NCBI GenBank assembly: GCA_016870915.1
Contig: VFZY01000004.1
Coordinates: 1 to 64,000, forward strand
Reading direction: 5' to 3'
Length of the DNA stretch: 64,000 bases
Origin: Acidobacteriota bacterium
GTDB taxonomy: Bacteria; Acidobacteriota; Terriglobia; Bryobacterales; Bryobacteraceae
The notes below the pieces were generated by a model. It was not told where the DNA came from, searched no databases, and was given only the letters and a program-made list of their open reading frames with translations. Numbering within the stretch: the first letter of the stretch is position 1; each line of letters starts with the position of its first letter. Shown here piece by piece: positions 3,271 to 9,455 of this stretch. The position numbers and the translations under genes were made by a program.

Positions 3271-3281
3271 CATTGGATTGC

Positions 3282-3701
3282 ATGAGCGAACTGGCCCGCA
3301 TTGGCGTTGCGATTGAGGCGGGACTTCTTGAGAAGTTCGATGAACTCATCGCGCGGCATGGTTACGACAACCGGTCGGAGGCGTTCCGCGACATGGTGCG
3401 GGACCGCTTGGTGCGCGAGGCGGCAGAGGCGCCCGACCAGCCGGTGGTGGGCACGATCACGCTGGTCTACAACCATCATCACCGGCAGTTGAACGAGAAG
3501 CTGACCGGGCTTCAGCACGAGGTGCATCATGCGATTATTTCCACGCTGCATGTGCACCTGGACCACGATGCGTGCCTGGAAGTGCTGGTGGTGCGGGGCC
3601 GTGCGCGCGATGTGCGGGCGATTGCGGACCGTCTGATCGCGACCAAGGGTGTGCGCCATGGCCAGCTCAGTCTGACAGCCGCGGCGGCGGCGCATGAATA
3701 G
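3282..3701 (+). CDS. nikR: Nickel-responsive transcriptional regulator NikR
   Basis: A 139-residue ribbon-helix-helix regulator of the usual NikR length. The N-terminal strand and helices (ARIGVAIEAGLLEKFDELIA, then YDNRSEAFRDMVRD) are the DNA-binding domain. The C-terminal ACT-like domain holds the nickel ligands in the expected spacing: an upstream His in HEVHHAII, then H-V-H and a Cys in HVHLDHDAC. The family represses nickel uptake genes when nickel is bound. I chose the ATG at 3282 over an in-frame TTG at 3273 because other members begin close to the first beta strand. It diverges from a TonB receptor and converges with the nitrate reductase cluster. The divergent receptor is the obvious candidate target. 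Confidence 0.93.
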   Translation: MSELARIGVAIEAGLLEKFDELIARHGYDNRSEAFRDMVRDRLVREAAEAPDQPVVGTITLVYNHHHRQLNEKLTGLQHEVHHAIISTLHVHLDHDACLEVLVVRGRARDVRAIADRLIATKGVRHGQLSLTAAAAAHE

Positions 3702-3719: not shown

Positions 3720-4934
3720 CTAGACAGGCCCGGTGTAGCGTACCTTTCCGAGTTCGACCGGGATTGCGACCTTGGCCAGGACGGTGAACACGAAGGCTCC
3801 CATGGCGAAGATGCCGAGGCCCACGGCGAATTCGACCCACGTTGGCGCATACTCCACCACTTTGCCCCACGGTTCCGGCACAAAGCCCGGAATGATGGTG
3901 CCCATGCCCTTCTCGATTTCGATGGCCACAACCAGCGCGGAACAGGCGGCCAGCAAGACGGGCAGACGCTGCCGCCAGCGGTGGACGGACAGCACCCCGG
4001 CCGCCGCGAATTGAAGCGCCAGGGAGGACCAGATCCACGGGACGAGGCGGTTGTGGCCATCCAGCCCGAAGAAGAGATACCTGGCGGAATGCGAGTGGTG
4101 GGTGGAGCGGTACGTCTCGGTGAAGATCTCGGAGATGCTCATGACGCAGCAGACCTGGGCGGCGACGGTGACGATCATGGCGAGTTTTTCGATGGTCCGG
4201 TCCGCCACGGGCATTTCGGTATGGCGGCGGATGGCAACCAGGATCAGGATGATCAGGGCCGGGCCCGCGGTGAAGGCGGTGGCGAGAAATCGCGGCCCCA
4301 GCAGAGCCGAGTGCCAGTATGGCCGCGCCGGCAACCCGGCGAACAGGAACGCGGTCACCAGGTGTAGAGAGACGGCCCAGAGAATGGACAGGAACACGAA
4401 GGGAACGTAGCGGCGCCGGTCCGGCGTGTGTCCGCGGAAGCGCGTGAAGAGCAGGTAGAAGGGGATGCCCAGGTTCAGGACGAGGTAACCGTTGAGCACC
4501 AGGATGTCCCAGGCGAGCATGGAGCGGGGGAAGTTCATCCGGCCCAGGCCCGGCAGAACGTGCCAAAGGCGGGCCGGGCCACCGACATCCACGACGACGA
4601 AGGCAATGGCCATGAGCACGGCGGCCACGGCGACCGCCTCACCGATGAGCACGGCGCGTTTGAAATCCATCTCTTCCAGCACGTAGGCGGGCATGACCAA
4701 AATGACGGCGGCGGCCGCGATGCCCACGAGGAAAGCGAAGTTTGAGATGTAGAAGCCCCAACTGACCTGATCGCGCATGCCGGTGACGGCGAGCCCCTGA
4801 TCGAGCTGGACGCAATAGGCGAACAGGCCCACGCACATGAGGAGGGTGAGCAGGGCCATCCAGAGATGGTAGGCGGGGCCGCCGCGGGTGGCTTCGCCGA
4901 TGCCGTAGCGGAGGAAGGATCGCAGTGCGGTCAT
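3720..4934 (-). CDS. NrfD/PsrC-type polytopic membrane quinol oxidoreductase subunit
   Basis: A 404-residue integral membrane protein with about ten hydrophobic segments and the NrfD-family pattern: an N-terminal segment followed by 'WGFYISNFAFLVGIAAAA', and a conserved-looking 'GRMNFPRSMLAWDILVLNGYLVLN' region. NrfD/PsrC subunits exchange electrons with the quinone pool and pass them to a partner ferredoxin. The partner is the gene directly upstream, separated by 4 bp. It is the last gene of the five-gene cluster with napA, so I infer it supplies quinol electrons for nitrate reduction, replacing NapC or NapH. Similar subunits occur in polysulfide, tetrathionate and alternative complex III enzymes, so the physiological direction is inferred from context. 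Confidence 0.85.
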   Translation of the reverse strand: MTALRSFLRYGIGEATRGGPAYHLWMALLTLLMCVGLFAYCVQLDQGLAVTGMRDQVSWGFYISNFAFLVGIAAAAVILVMPAYVLEEMDFKRAVLIGEAVAVAAVLMAIAFVVVDVGGPARLWHVLPGLGRMNFPRSMLAWDILVLNGYLVLNLGIPFYLLFTRFRGHTPDRRRYVPFVFLSILWAVSLHLVTAFLFAGLPARPYWHSALLGPRFLATAFTAGPALIILILVAIRRHTEMPVADRTIEKLAMIVTVAAQVCCVMSISEIFTETYRSTHHSHSARYLFFGLDGHNRLVPWIWSSLALQFAAAGVLSVHRWRQRLPVLLAACSALVVAIEIEKGMGTIIPGFVPEPWGKVVEYAPTWVEFAVGLGIFAMGAFVFTVLAKVAIPVELGKVRYTGPV

Positions 4935-4938
4935 AGGA

Positions 4939-5892
4939 TCAGTCCATGAAGTACCAGAACTTCGGATCGGTTCCGAGATCTTCCTTCAGCCGGAAGACCT
5001 TCTTGTTGGCGAGCACCCAGCGGATCTCGCTTTGGGGGTCCAGGAGGTTGCCGAAGATGCGCGCGCCGGTGGGGCAGGCTTCGACGCAGGCGGGGTTGCG
5101 GCCATCGCGGCTGCGTTGAATGCAGAAGGTGCATTTTTCGACGACGCCTTTCTGGCGCATCCGGTTGCCCAGGTAGTGCTGGTTGGGGTTGAGATCGGCC
5201 TCCGGCACTTCCGGCGCCTGCCAGTTGAACCGCCGTGCGTCGTAGGGACATGCCGCCATGCAGTAGCGGCAGCCGATGCACCAGTCGTAGTCCACCACCA
5301 CGATGCCGTCGGGCTCCATCCAGGTGGCTTTGACGGGGCAAACGTCGACGCATGGTGGATTCTGGCAGTGAAAGCACTGGGTTCCGAGATAGAAGTGGCC
5401 CTCGGCGGGCACCGGATGATCGAAGGTATCGCTGGCTTTCGAGAAATCGAACTCGCCGTTGCGGTGCTCATGGATCCGGATGTAGGCCATGCCGGAGGCT
5501 CGATCCTGGTTGTTCTCCCGGATGCATGCGCTTACGCACTCCAGGTAGCCCCGGCACTTGGAGACGTTGAAGGCGTAGCCGAACAGCACTTTCTCGATGG
5601 GTTCGGCGCCGCTGACTGAGATCCGGCCGCCGTGCTTAAGCTGGTGGAGGCGTTCCAGCCGCAGAAGGGCTTCCGTTTTTTCTTCTTCCGACATGAGCCG
5701 GTAGTTCTCTTGAAAGTACCGCTGCCACTCCAGCCGCGACGCTTCGCGGGATTCCGGCGAAGCGAAGGGATTGATGGCGTTGGCCACGGAAGCCGCGGCG
5801 GTGGCGGCGCCAGCCACGGCGCAGCCAGCCACGGTGATGGCGGTGCGGCGGTCCATTGGCTGGGAGAGAATCTGAACGAGTCCATTCTTCAT
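4939..5892 (-). CDS. Four-cluster [4Fe-4S] ferredoxin subunit, twin-arginine leader
   Basis: A 317-residue electron-transfer protein. The leader has DRRTAITVAGCAVAGAATAA, a twin-arginine-like signal, so it is probably exported folded. Four cysteine clusters follow: CRGYLECVSAC, CFHCQNPPCVDVCP, CIGCRYCMAACPY and CTFCIQRSRDGRNPACVEACP, as in DmsB/PsrB/NrfC-type subunits that bind four [4Fe-4S] centres. The ATG at 5892 overlaps the upstream cytochrome stop by ATGA and has AAAGGAGG in front, which fixes the start. Followed after 4 bp by the NrfD-type gene. It most likely carries electrons from the NrfD subunit toward the cytochromes and NapA. Confidence 0.88.
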   Translation of the reverse strand: MKNGLVQILSQPMDRRTAITVAGCAVAGAATAAASVANAINPFASPESREASRLEWQRYFQENYRLMSEEEKTEALLRLERLHQLKHGGRISVSGAEPIEKVLFGYAFNVSKCRGYLECVSACIRENNQDRASGMAYIRIHEHRNGEFDFSKASDTFDHPVPAEGHFYLGTQCFHCQNPPCVDVCPVKATWMEPDGIVVVDYDWCIGCRYCMAACPYDARRFNWQAPEVPEADLNPNQHYLGNRMRQKGVVEKCTFCIQRSRDGRNPACVEACPTGARIFGNLLDPQSEIRWVLANKKVFRLKEDLGTDPKFWYFMD

Positions 5893-6416
5893 TCGCCGGC
5901 AGCCTCCTTTCGTGTCATGGCTGGCAGCCGCCGGCCGAAGCCGGGCGAGTGCGGGTTGTGGCACCCGGTGCAGCCGATGGCGACGCGAGCGCTGGCCCAA
6001 CCGGTGGCCCGCTTGCCATGGGCTCCACCGGCCCAGTCCTTCTGTTGCCGGGCATGGCACTGGCCGCAGAGGCGGTGCGATTCATCGAAGCCGACGGGTG
6101 CGCCGCCGAGCATTCGCAGTTCGCCGCGGACCGGGTCGGCGTGACAGGTCTGGCATTGCATGGTTTCGTTGGGGGCGTGGCGCTGAGCGACCCCCCAGTG
6201 CGCCGCGGGATGGACCGGGCTCATGGCCGCGAGGGGTACGGTGTGGCAGCGAGTGCAGGGAGCTTTCTCCATAAACGCTGCGCGCTCGACCACACCGGGC
6301 GGCGCGGGCACGATGTCGAGGGCGCTCATGGGGCGCGGCGGCCTGCCGGGTGAACCTCCACAGGCGGCCAGCACGAAGATTGAAACAACGCTTGCGCCCG
6401 CGAGTGCGAATCTCAT
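5889..6416 (-). CDS. Tetraheme c-type cytochrome lipoprotein
   Basis: A 175-residue exported cytochrome. The leader MRFALAGASVVSIFVLAAC ends in a lipobox (LAAC, Cys19), so it should be lipid-anchored; lgt and lspA lie nearby. Four CXXCH sites are visible: CTRCH (54-58), CQTCH (88-92), CGQCH (117-121) and CTGCH (149-153), the last in the C-T-G-C-H-N-P-H form seen in many multiheme proteins. The start ATG at 6416 overlaps the upstream cytochrome stop by ATGA. By position it should shuttle electrons between the ferredoxin/NrfD pair and the NapB-like cytochrome. I do not recognise an exact named homologue. Confidence 0.85.
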   Translation of the reverse strand: MRFALAGASVVSIFVLAACGGSPGRPPRPMSALDIVPAPPGVVERAAFMEKAPCTRCHTVPLAAMSPVHPAAHWGVAQRHAPNETMQCQTCHADPVRGELRMLGGAPVGFDESHRLCGQCHARQQKDWAGGAHGKRATGWASARVAIGCTGCHNPHSPGFGRRLPAMTRKEAAGE

Positions 6417-7072
6417 TCGGGCCCTCTGCGGAAGACGGCGCCGTTGACTTCGCGAGCCACATGGCATTGTGAGCAGTTGTGGCGCTCCGGGTGTGACATT
6501 CGGAGTTCGCGTACGGCTCCCGGGCCGCTATGGCAAGCCAGGCAGTTGGTCCGGGTGTCCGTTTCGTGGGGAACCGGCGGCGGGCTGCCGGGCAGTGCGG
6601 GGCCATTCTCTGGCGGCGGGACGGGTGTGAATGACGTGGGACGGAACAGGCCGGCGTTCTCTTCCTTTGCCACATGGCATTGCAGGCAGGAGGTGAAGCC
6701 CGGGTGAGGTGTGACTGGCGCCATGGCCTTGAACAGAGGGACAAAGCCGCCGTCGCGATGGCAGATGAGGCAGCCGCGGCCGCCCCATGCCGCGGAGTCC
6801 AGGAGACGATGCGGAATGGCGGGGGGAGCACCGGGATAGGCACGCAGCCGGCCGGCGGAAGCCAGGGTGCGCGCACCGGGAGCGGGCACCTTGCTGTAGC
6901 TTTCGGGTTTGAGTGAGTCCGGGGCTGGAGGAGGGGGCTGCGTCCGTTCCTTAAGCGCGCCGGAGTCCCGTGTGCCGGGCAGGGGCGCCTGGCTGCCGAG
7001 CACGAACACCCCGCCCAGCATCAGCGCGGAGATGCCTGTGATGTGCCAGATTCGTGCGGGTGCGATGGTCAC
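6413..7072 (-). CDS. NapB-like cytochrome with internal duplication (four hemes)
   Basis: A 219-residue membrane-anchored or secreted cytochrome c. NapB, the usual small subunit of periplasmic nitrate reductase, has two hemes and the pattern I-P-H, C-x-x-C-H, H-P, C-x-Q-C-H-V. Here that pattern occurs twice: IPH (86-88), CLICH (101-105), HPG, CLQCHVA (129-135), then VPH (167-169), CLACH (177-181), HPE, CSQCHVA (200-206). I read this as a tandem duplication of the NapB module. The GTG at 7072, 4 bp after the napA stop, gives a hydrophobic leader segment near residues 10-27; other starts would overlap napA deeply. It should be the direct electron donor to NapA. Confidence 0.82.
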   Translation of the reverse strand: MTIAPARIWHITGISALMLGGVFVLGSQAPLPGTRDSGALKERTQPPPPAPDSLKPESYSKVPAPGARTLASAGRLRAYPGAPPAIPHRLLDSAAWGGRGCLICHRDGGFVPLFKAMAPVTPHPGFTSCLQCHVAKEENAGLFRPTSFTPVPPPENGPALPGSPPPVPHETDTRTNCLACHSGPGAVRELRMSHPERHNCSQCHVAREVNGAVFRRGPE

Positions 7073-7076
7073 GGCT

Positions 7077-9386
7077 TTAGCCCAGCTCCGCGCGGGCGGG
7101 CTCCACGCGCACGGCGCATTTCTTGTAGTCCGGCTGCTTGGAGATGGGGCAGAACGCATCGAGCGTCAGTTCGTTGATCAGCTTCGATTCATCGAAGAAG
7201 GGCACGAACACCTGGCCGGGCGCGGGCTGGCCGCGTCCGCCCACCTTGGCTTTCAGCACGATTTCGCCGCGGCGGCTGCGCAGACGCACGGCATCGCCGG
7301 TGCGGAGTTGAAGACGCGCCGCATCGCGGCTGTTGATCTCGACGTAGGCGGCCGGCACGGCCTGGTGCAGCACGGGCACGCGACGGGTCATGGAACCGGT
7401 GTGCCAGTGTTCCAGCACGCGTCCGGTGGAGAGCCAGAACGGATACTCCTTGTCGGGCTTTTCCGGCGGTGGTTCGTAGGGACGGAACCAGATCCAGGCG
7501 CGCCGGTTGGGCTTGCCGTAGAAATCCCAGGAGTCACCTTTGGCCGCCGGATCGTAGCGGGCGTGGTAGCGCCACTTGGTCTCCCGGCCGTTGACGTAGG
7601 GCCATTGGACCCCCGGGCGCTGCTTGAGCACCTCGTAGGGCGCCATGGAGTGATCGGCGCCGTGATGAAACTCGCTGTATTCCTTCCAGATGGCGGCGAT
7701 GTGATTTTCGCGGGTCCAGGGGAACAGATGGCCGTAGCCGGCCCGCCGCGCCACCTCGATCAATTGCCAGGTGTCGCTCATGGCATCGCCGGGCGGCTGC
7801 AACATCTGCTCGAAGTGCTGGGTGCGCCGTTCGGAATTTCCGAACATGCCCTCGCGCTCGATCCACATGGCTGATGGGAGGACGACGTCGGCGATGTCCG
7901 TGGTTGGAGTGGGGTAGACCTCGGAGACGACGATGAACCGCCCGTCTTTCTTCGCGGCGTCGCGATACCGGCGGAGTTTGGGCATGGTCACCATGGGGTT
8001 GGTGACCTGAATCCACAGGAAGCGGATTTCCCCGCGATCGAGCGCACGGAACATCTCCACGGCGTGGAAGGTGGGCTTGGCGGGAATTTTCTCCACGGGC
8101 ACTTTCCAGATGGAGGCTGCCAGTTTGCGGTCCGCTTCGTTTGTCACGTCCCCGTGCGGCAGGCGGTTGGTCAAGGTGCCCACTTCACGCACGGTGCCGC
8201 AGGCTGAAGGCTGCCCTGTCAGGGAGAACGGGCTATTGCCCGGTGTTGAGATCTTGCCTGTCAGCAGATGCAGGTTATAGACAAGGTTCTGCATCCAGGT
8301 GCCGCGGGTGTGCTGATTCATGCCCATGCACCAGAAGCTCACCACCTTCTTACCGGGATTCGCGTAGAGCGACGCCAGATAGCGCAGATCCCGTGGACTC
8401 ACGCCGCTCAGCGCCTCAACGCGTTCGGGCGTGTATTCGTCCACCAGTTCCCGGTACTGTTCGAAGGTGATGGCGGTGGCCTGATCATTGAACGCGAATT
8501 TGTCTTCCACGCCATAGCCGATTTCCGTCTTTCCCTGGTGGAAGCTGACGTGCCGTTCGACAAAGGCGCGGTTGACGGCGCCGAGGCGGATGATCTCCCG
8601 CGCCAGGCCGTTGGCGATGGCCAGGTCGGCATTTGGTTGAAAAAGAATCAGACGGTTCGCCGCCGCGGAGGTGCGCGTCGATCGAGTTGCCAGATCGATG
8701 ATCTCGACGTCCGGCCGCTTGTCGCGCTGCTCCAGCATCCGTGAGAAGAGCACCGGATGCATTTCCGCCATGTTGTTGCCCCAGAGCACGAAGACATCGG
8801 CATGATCGATGTCCTCGTAGCAGCCCATGGGCTCATCCATGCCGAAGGTGGTCATGAAACCGGTGACGGCGCTGGCCATGCAAAGCCGGGCGTTCGCCTC
8901 CACGTTGTTGGTCCCGATGCCGCCTTTGAAGAGTTTCGAGGCGACATAGCCGTCGGGAATGGTCCATTGGCCGCTGCCGTAGATGGCGACGGAGTCCTTG
9001 CCCGATGCCGCGATGGTCTGCTTGAGCTGCGACGCCACCAGATTGAGCGCCTCTTCGATGGGCGCGGGGGTGAGCTTGCCGTTCTTGCGGATGAGTGCCT
9101 GGCGTAGACGGTCCTCGCCGTAGAGAGCCATGACGGAGTGGTAGCCCTTGACGCAGCAGAGGCCCTTGTTCACGGCGCTGGCCGGGTCGCCTTGCACGGC
9201 GACGGCCTTGCCGTTCGCGATGCCCACCAGCAGCCCGCAGCCGGTGCCGCAGAAGCGGCATGGGGTCTTCTTCCACACCGTCCCGGCCGGCAATCTGGTT
9301 TCCGCCGCGGGTGCGGCCTGTTCCACGAGCGACGCAGCGGCCCCGGCCGCCAGCACCTTGAATACGTCTCTTCGCTTCCGCGCCAA
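7077..9386 (-). CDS. napA: Periplasmic nitrate reductase catalytic subunit NapA
   Basis: A 769-residue molybdopterin oxidoreductase, probably reducing nitrate to nitrite in the periplasm. A twin-arginine signal (RKRRDVFKVLAAGAAA) precedes the [4Fe-4S] cysteines C43, C46, C50 and a CC at 77-78. The likely Mo-ligand cysteine is C169 in NNVEANARLCMAS. NapA-like stretches include LTGKISTPGNSPFSLTGQPS, PTPTTDIADVVLPSAMWIER and VNGRETKWRY. GTG at 9395 sits directly on the AGGAG; the TTG at 9386 is 8 nt behind AGGAGG, so I chose it. First gene of napA, doubled napB, tetraheme lipoprotein, ferredoxin, nrfD. An assimilatory enzyme is less likely given the leader and cytochromes. Confidence 0.9.
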   Translation of the reverse strand: MARKRRDVFKVLAAGAAASLVEQAAPAAETRLPAGTVWKKTPCRFCGTGCGLLVGIANGKAVAVQGDPASAVNKGLCCVKGYHSVMALYGEDRLRQALIRKNGKLTPAPIEEALNLVASQLKQTIAASGKDSVAIYGSGQWTIPDGYVASKLFKGGIGTNNVEANARLCMASAVTGFMTTFGMDEPMGCYEDIDHADVFVLWGNNMAEMHPVLFSRMLEQRDKRPDVEIIDLATRSTRTSAAANRLILFQPNADLAIANGLAREIIRLGAVNRAFVERHVSFHQGKTEIGYGVEDKFAFNDQATAITFEQYRELVDEYTPERVEALSGVSPRDLRYLASLYANPGKKVVSFWCMGMNQHTRGTWMQNLVYNLHLLTGKISTPGNSPFSLTGQPSACGTVREVGTLTNRLPHGDVTNEADRKLAASIWKVPVEKIPAKPTFHAVEMFRALDRGEIRFLWIQVTNPMVTMPKLRRYRDAAKKDGRFIVVSEVYPTPTTDIADVVLPSAMWIEREGMFGNSERRTQHFEQMLQPPGDAMSDTWQLIEVARRAGYGHLFPWTRENHIAAIWKEYSEFHHGADHSMAPYEVLKQRPGVQWPYVNGRETKWRYHARYDPAAKGDSWDFYGKPNRRAWIWFRPYEPPPEKPDKEYPFWLSTGRVLEHWHTGSMTRRVPVLHQAVPAAYVEINSRDAARLQLRTGDAVRLRSRRGEIVLKAKVGGRGQPAPGQVFVPFFDESKLINELTLDAFCPISKQPDYKKCAVRVEPARAELG

Positions 9387-9455
9387 AATGCCCACCTCCT
9401 AATAAAGGATTGGGGGCTGCACGCGTCGTGCCAAAGTCCTGAGCTTGCCGGAAGC

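Follow-up and report, generated by a model that had tools for sequence, protein, structure and literature searches.

What is the protein with four heme motifs that is encoded directly after napA in an Acidobacteriota bacterium of the family Bryobacteraceae (assembly GCA_016870915.1, contig VFZY01000004.1; the window, i.e., the whole stretch analysed here, comprises the first 64,000 nucleotides of this contig)? Nap is a principal route by which nitrate is respired in the periplasm, and the partner of its catalytic subunit, NapA, has been described as the diheme cytochrome NapB, which is fed by NapC or NapGH. A sequence-only reading of the locus proposed that the NapB module had been doubled into one tetraheme subunit. 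With a probability of roughly three in four, the protein, designated here NapB4, is a NapB homologue in which the diheme module was duplicated in tandem in a single ancient event, and it transfers electrons to the NapA encoded beside it.

Architecture of NapB4 and kinship of its halves

The napB4 gene (6413..7072, minus strand) encodes 219 amino acids from a GTG start at 7072, four bases past the napA stop codon; its coordinates, its length, and its place directly after napA had been given correctly in the sequence-only reading. A longer ATG frame from 7159 would overlap napA. The product matches the Pfam NapB model (PF03892) at 29.9 bits, above the cut-off of 25.1, and its sequence contains the heme motifs CLICH (residues 101-105, 6758..6772), CLQCH (129-133, 6674..6688), CLACH (177-181, 6530..6544), and CSQCH (200-204, 6461..6475), all on the minus strand. 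NapB unit 1 (residues 77-151; 6620..6844, minus strand) comprises PPAIPH, CLICH, TPH, and CLQCHVA, and unit 2 (residues 158-216; 6425..6601, minus strand) comprises PPPVPH, CLACH, SH, and CSQCHVA. The order PPxxPH, CxxCH, PH/SH, CxQCHVA, whose repetition had already been noticed, runs through residues 83-135 and again through residues 164-206. Among 77 aligned homologues, no variation occurs at the histidines of the four CxxCH motifs or at four others (88, 123, 169, and 194), and thus the four hemes are probably bis-His. Canonical NapB has two CxxCH hemes and two further histidines, a pattern that NapB4 does not fit, as it carries double and is thus a variant rather than a canonical NapB. The earlier statement that standard NapB comprises one diheme unit holds for canonical NapB, but the doubled form is common outside Proteobacteria.

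To compare the halves with NapB, the heme Cys and His residues of every CxxCH were masked; 98 tetraheme proteins yielded 88 distinct ones, which were scored as halves, and 81 for the unit tree, and 24 of 26 diheme loci were used (L045 and L066 failed the motif filter). On the masked N-half profile, the median score was 28.2 bits for the C-halves (n=88) and 16.8 bits for the diheme NapBs; heme pairs taken from the neighbouring octaheme cytochromes and from Cyt4, a tetraheme lipoprotein encoded beside napB4, had medians of -1.6 to 0.7 bits. The masked diheme NapB profile gave 17.6 bits for the N-halves, 10.4 for the C-halves, and at most 4.1 for the controls; over three masked profiles, the octaheme and Cyt4 pairs had medians of -2.3 to 0.7 and a best single score of 5.4. 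Profile-profile comparison gave E-values of 2e-22 (N vs. C), 5e-19 (N vs. diheme), and 4e-14 (C vs. diheme). Against the PDB, the whole-family profile (A2), in which unit 1 matches solved NapBs at E 2.6e-11, ranked the three solved NapBs first to third (2.6e-11, 4.6e-11, and 7.9e-8), followed by NrfA at 2.2e-5, and the C-half profile (A3) also placed the three NapBs first (2.1e-6, 3.3e-6, and 4.7e-5), with the next match at 7e-4. The likeness of the halves to each other far exceeds chance.

The N-half is the more NapB-like one in 84 of the 88 proteins. Scored against the diheme profile, hemes 2-3 of the same protein, taken out of phase, do as well as the C-half (19.6 vs. 18.2 bits without masking, 10.7 vs. 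10.4 with it), but this control is not a clean negative because it contains half of each unit; what carries the argument is the contrast with unrelated cytochromes and the register of the profile-profile alignments. An AF2 model of NapB4 was mediocre (pLDDT 71.2, pTM 0.59); the first PDB match of this model in Foldseek was the NapB chain 3ml1_B, which was not significant (E 3.9), and residues 81-154 of the model aligned weakly with 3ml1_B (Z 2.6 over 64 residues).

Could the resemblance instead reflect convergence around heme motifs in a carrier of the NapM or cytochrome c3/c7 type? The NCBI name of the Flammeovirga homologue is indeed 'cytochrome c3 family protein', and the Cytochrome_C7 model, like PF03892, finds each of the 18 proteins in the first alignment (A1) at E<=0.01. 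The window C-half alone scores 20.6 bits with Cytochrome_C7, 18.5 with NapC, and 16.2 with NapB, all below cut-off. NapM is likewise a tetraheme protein that adjoins NapA, according to the accessible part of PMC5317091. However, in the masked profiles, NapM-type and NapC-type segments reached medians of only -2.3 to -0.2 bits (best single score 8.9), and 12 NapM-type proteins from napC-napM-napA clusters had medians of -1.9 to -0.8 (best 8.9); furthermore, NapAs linked to NapM form a separate clade and have the heme-II tyrosine discussed below in 0 of 11 cases. On the masked-profile scores, convergence from NapM, NapC, or c3/c7 cytochromes was rejected, and it appears extremely improbable. The concern that the halves might be no nearer to NapB than to other cytochromes was likewise not substantiated, as both are nearer to NapB, the C-half more weakly; the masked profiles and the PDB matches bear out the proposed doubling of the NapB module.

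The operon, a conserved NapA tyrosine, and a possible electron route

The napA gene (7077..9395, minus strand; 772 amino acids, GTG start) encodes the catalytic subunit of periplasmic nitrate reductase, which scores 961.6 bits with NF010055 (cut-off 904) and 940.6 with TIGR01706 (cut-off 930.55), carries the [4Fe-4S] motif CxxCxxxC...C and the Cys in RLCMAS, and has E. coli and C. necator NapA as its best PDB matches. According to the accessible text of a 2026 review (PMC13223375), electrons enter at NapB heme I, and heme II lies ~7.5 Å from NapA Tyr58, a residue described as conserved in heterodimeric Nap. Tyr85 of the window NapA (9141..9143, minus strand) aligns with Tyr58 of C. sphaeroides NapA, the residue neighbouring NapB heme II. 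This tyrosine is kept in 75 of the 77 tetraheme-type NapAs that have a residue at the column, in 16/16 diheme-type NapAs, and in 0/11 of the NapM type, and its retention in the tetraheme type argues independently that the contact of NapB4 with NapA is like that of NapB. C. sphaeroides NapA Glu47 was uninformative, being present in 3/16 even among diheme-type NapAs.

Downstream of napB4 lie the genes for the tetraheme cytochrome lipoprotein Cyt4 (5889..6416; 175 amino acids; Paired_CXXCH_1 37.5 bits, cut-off 20.6), an exported Fe-S protein of the DsrO/NrfC type (4939..5892; 16 Cys and an RR motif; 199.5 bits with the DsrO model NF045797, just below the cut-off of 200), and an NrfD/DsrP-type integral membrane protein (3720..4934; about 10 hydrophobic segments; Pfam NrfD 117.8 bits, DsrP model NF045798 393.4 bits with a cut-off of 350), which is presumed to be a menaquinol dehydrogenase. 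All five genes are on the minus strand and form a compact operon, in which the napB4/Cyt4 and Cyt4/Fe-S junctions are ATGA overlaps and the Fe-S/NrfD gap, like that between napA and napB4, is 4 bases; neither DsrM nor DsrK was seen in it. A gene for the nickel-responsive regulator NikR (3273-3701) is convergent to the end of the operon.

From this gene content, we infer the electron donor and, with it, a possible electron route. The NrfD-type protein would oxidise menaquinol, and the exported Fe-S protein and then the tetraheme lipoprotein would hand electrons to NapB4, from whose hemes they would pass via the NapA [4Fe-4S] cluster to molybdenum, where nitrate would be reduced in the periplasm. 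Of the two halves, unit 1 is more NapB-like and would be more likely to dock, unit 2 would provide an added entry for electrons, and the NrfD/Fe-S/tetraheme module would fill the place held by NapC or NapGH in known nap operons. A match to the NapC/NrfH family was absent from 4 of the 13 carrier genomes examined. Residues 11-27 of NapB4 form a hydrophobic segment in a hydropathy scan (6992..7042, minus strand), which is a putative membrane anchor and is followed by a Pro-rich linker of approx. 54 residues; it may alternatively be a cleaved signal peptide, but NapB4 is probably tethered by anchor and linker to the membrane beside its donor. The idea that a four-heme chain might reach further, perhaps to the membrane, can be set beside another route to the membrane, suggested by the hydrophobic anchor, a linker of 50-90 residues, and the dedicated tetraheme-FeS-NrfD module in the operon.

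It might be asked whether NapA of these clusters acts in vivo on an oxyanion other than nitrate and receives its electrons from NapB4. Consistent with this, NapD was not found in a Pfam search of the window's genome, and the NrfD protein of the cluster in Flammeovirga kamogawensis is annotated as DsrP. On the other hand, the window NapA passes two curated NapA equivalog models, and on the complete plasmid of F. kamogawensis the order is napD-napA-napB4-cytochrome-FeS-NrfD, i.e., napD precedes napA; a substrate other than nitrate appears very unlikely. The best NapC/NrfH-family match in the window's genome adjoins a partial nrfA match near the end of another contig (C300:107-1483) and is probably NrfH. 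With NrfA and this NrfH-like gene, conversion of nitrate to ammonium by Nap and NrfAH would be possible in the organism.

Distribution, cluster types, and age of the duplication

A search of 396 acidobacterial genomes returned 17 full-length homologues besides that of the window, each directly after napA, and three further weak matches, none of which has napA beside it. Scanning the GTDB collection yielded 237 confirmed loci, and the counts out of 80 that follow refer to the matches listed, 80 of these 237. All 80 listed loci encode four hemes; in 78 of them napA precedes napB4 in the same orientation, and the other two begin at contig ends. The distance from the end of napA to the first heme codon is 150-503 bases in 76 of the 78, and in two loci (L093:6902-7450 and L094:3282-3830) the order is napA, Cyt4, FeS, NrfD, with napB4 last. 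Seventy-two of the listed loci fall in 16 named phyla (eight have no phylum assigned), and the carrier groups include Planctomycetota, Verrucomicrobiota, Acidobacteriota, and Bacteroidota. Most listed loci come from metagenome assemblies, with cultured strains of Rhodopirellula, Roseimaritima, Roseiconus, Haloferula, and Aestuariivivens among them. One metagenome-assembled genome labelled Akkermansia muciniphila (L112) has a nap cluster placed among Prosthecobacter/Verrucomicrobiaceae in the NapA tree and is possibly misnamed or misbinned.

Two cluster types were distinguished. The first, napA-napB4-Cyt4-FeS-NrfD as in the window, accounts for 46/80 listed loci. In the second (20/80), an octaheme protein, which we take to be hydroxylamine-oxidoreductase-like, accompanies napA-napB4 (L103, L109, L118, and 17 more loci, mostly just upstream), and no quinol module is adjacent; thus, the NrfD route is not universal. 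The quinol module is partial in four listed loci, three of which reach contig ends (L078, L084, and L129) and one of which (L100) has only a distant Fe-S gene, and 10/80 have neither module nor octaheme protein. All 46 distinct NapB4s of the first type have a hydrophobic N-terminal segment, with a lipobox-like match in only three, whereas 21 of 27 octaheme-type NapB4s have a lipobox and a shorter linker (median 27 vs. 65 residues); both forms of the N-terminus suggest membrane attachment.

The second cluster type is possibly a nitrate-to-ammonium or nitrate-to-hydroxylamine unit, and it raises the alternative that NapB4 is a shared periplasmic hub, which would supply a nitrite reductase (NrfA or the octaheme protein) as well as NapA with electrons from the membrane, so that one unit would turn nitrate into ammonium. 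An octaheme protein accompanies napA-napB4 not only in the 20 listed loci, where the quinol module is missing nearby, but also in 10 of 17 acidobacterial regions; two acidobacterial examples match Multi-haem_cyto, and the window's genome has NrfA and the NrfH-like gene on another contig. Nevertheless, the stretches covering the 46 NrfD-module loci yielded no octaheme homologue, and the constant neighbour of napB4 is napA, not the octaheme gene. Such a hub is conceivable for NapB4 but appears rather unlikely, and a role as the NapA electron-transfer subunit is preferred.

A tree of both halves had been suggested as a means of timing the duplication. In this unit tree (81 N-units, 81 C-units, and 24 diheme NapBs), the C-units form one clade (100/93), which fits one old duplication, and the diheme NapBs form another (99/99), placed weakly among the N-units (67/86); N-units as one clade vs. 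diheme NapB were not rejected (AU p 0.48). The duplication is thus best read, from these sequences, as one old event shared by many phyla rather than a local novelty, a pattern that would fit its having preceded the spread over phyla. Of 141 loci considered for the NapA tree, 112 had sufficient coverage, and 102 were left after removal of duplicates; the tree then comprised 117 after diheme loci and Flammeovirga had been added and two partial rows replaced. Rooted with FDH, it groups the diheme NapAs together, next to three or more tetraheme clades, and the NapM-linked NapAs form a clade of their own; support for tetraheme-type NapAs as one clade is 39. One might speculate that, within the Nap lineage that uses NapB, the tetraheme version with an NrfD-type quinol module of its own came first and that proteobacterial diheme NapB arose by loss of the second unit, a doubtful scenario at present. 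At one locus (L212:3720-4544, genome G191), a diheme-type NapB frame approx. 3 kb from the tetraheme napB resembles a decaying gene, as the first Cys is missing from each of its heme motifs (SVRCH and GTACH).

If this interpretation is correct, the nitrate-respiring equipment of Planctomycetota, Verrucomicrobiota, Acidobacteriota, Bacteroidota, and others would be under-annotated, because the Pfam NapB model missed most copies and NCBI labels one 'cytochrome c3 family' beside 'DsrP'. When genomes were searched in six frames with PF03892 (E<=0.001), the tetraheme gene was recovered in only 5 of 18 carrier genomes, that of the window itself being missed, and a scan of genome contigs with a single protein query returned nothing. 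As the window NrfD-type protein (3720-4934) passes the NCBI DsrP model, such proteins of nap operons are named DsrP; thus, for example, that of F. kamogawensis plasmid p1 (L215:11172-12389) is called 'sulfate reduction electron transfer complex DsrMKJOP subunit DsrP', a name that may suggest sulfate reduction where the cluster serves nitrate. The interpretation also raises the question of whether nitrate reduction in the periplasm conserves energy when an NrfD-type protein is the donor.

Comparison with known systems

Literature searches, for which subscription papers were mostly outside reach, returned no paper on tetraheme or duplicated NapB. The accessible text of PMC13223375 describes four nap operon types, and neither tetraheme cluster type is among them; relative to that text, NapB4 with an NrfD-type or octaheme cluster is beyond the reviewed operon types. 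The closest known system is NapB itself (PF03892; 3ml1_B, 1ogy_B, and 1jni_A), which shares with NapB4 the PPxxPH-CxxCH-H-CxxCHV order and the place after napA. Solved NapBs are the best PDB matches for both halves, and the partner NapA tyrosine is kept in both systems. Unlike diheme NapB, NapB4 has two units and four hemes per chain, a diverged C-half, and, in the window, a probable N-terminal anchor.

NapM of the napCMADGH operons (Desulfovibrio type) resembles NapB4 in being a tetraheme cytochrome encoded beside napA, but it is without the NapB motif order, and its NapA belongs to a separate clade without the heme-II tyrosine. Modules of the NrfBCD/DsrJOP type share with the window operon the combination of a multiheme cytochrome, an exported Fe-S protein, and an NrfD-type protein, whereas the window module adjoins a molybdenum nitrate reductase and its cytochrome has four hemes. 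In DsrMKJOP, DsrM and DsrK are part of the same operon and DsrJ is a triheme protein; in contrast, the window operon holds napA, napB4, four-heme Cyt4, FeS, and NrfD only. Finally, Caldithrix, as described in the accessible part of PMC5317091, has an octaheme epsilon-Hao next to nap, is without NapB, and uses NapM. The octaheme protein beside napA is thus shared with the second cluster type; the difference lies in the partner of NapA, which is NapM in Caldithrix and NapB4 in the clusters described here.
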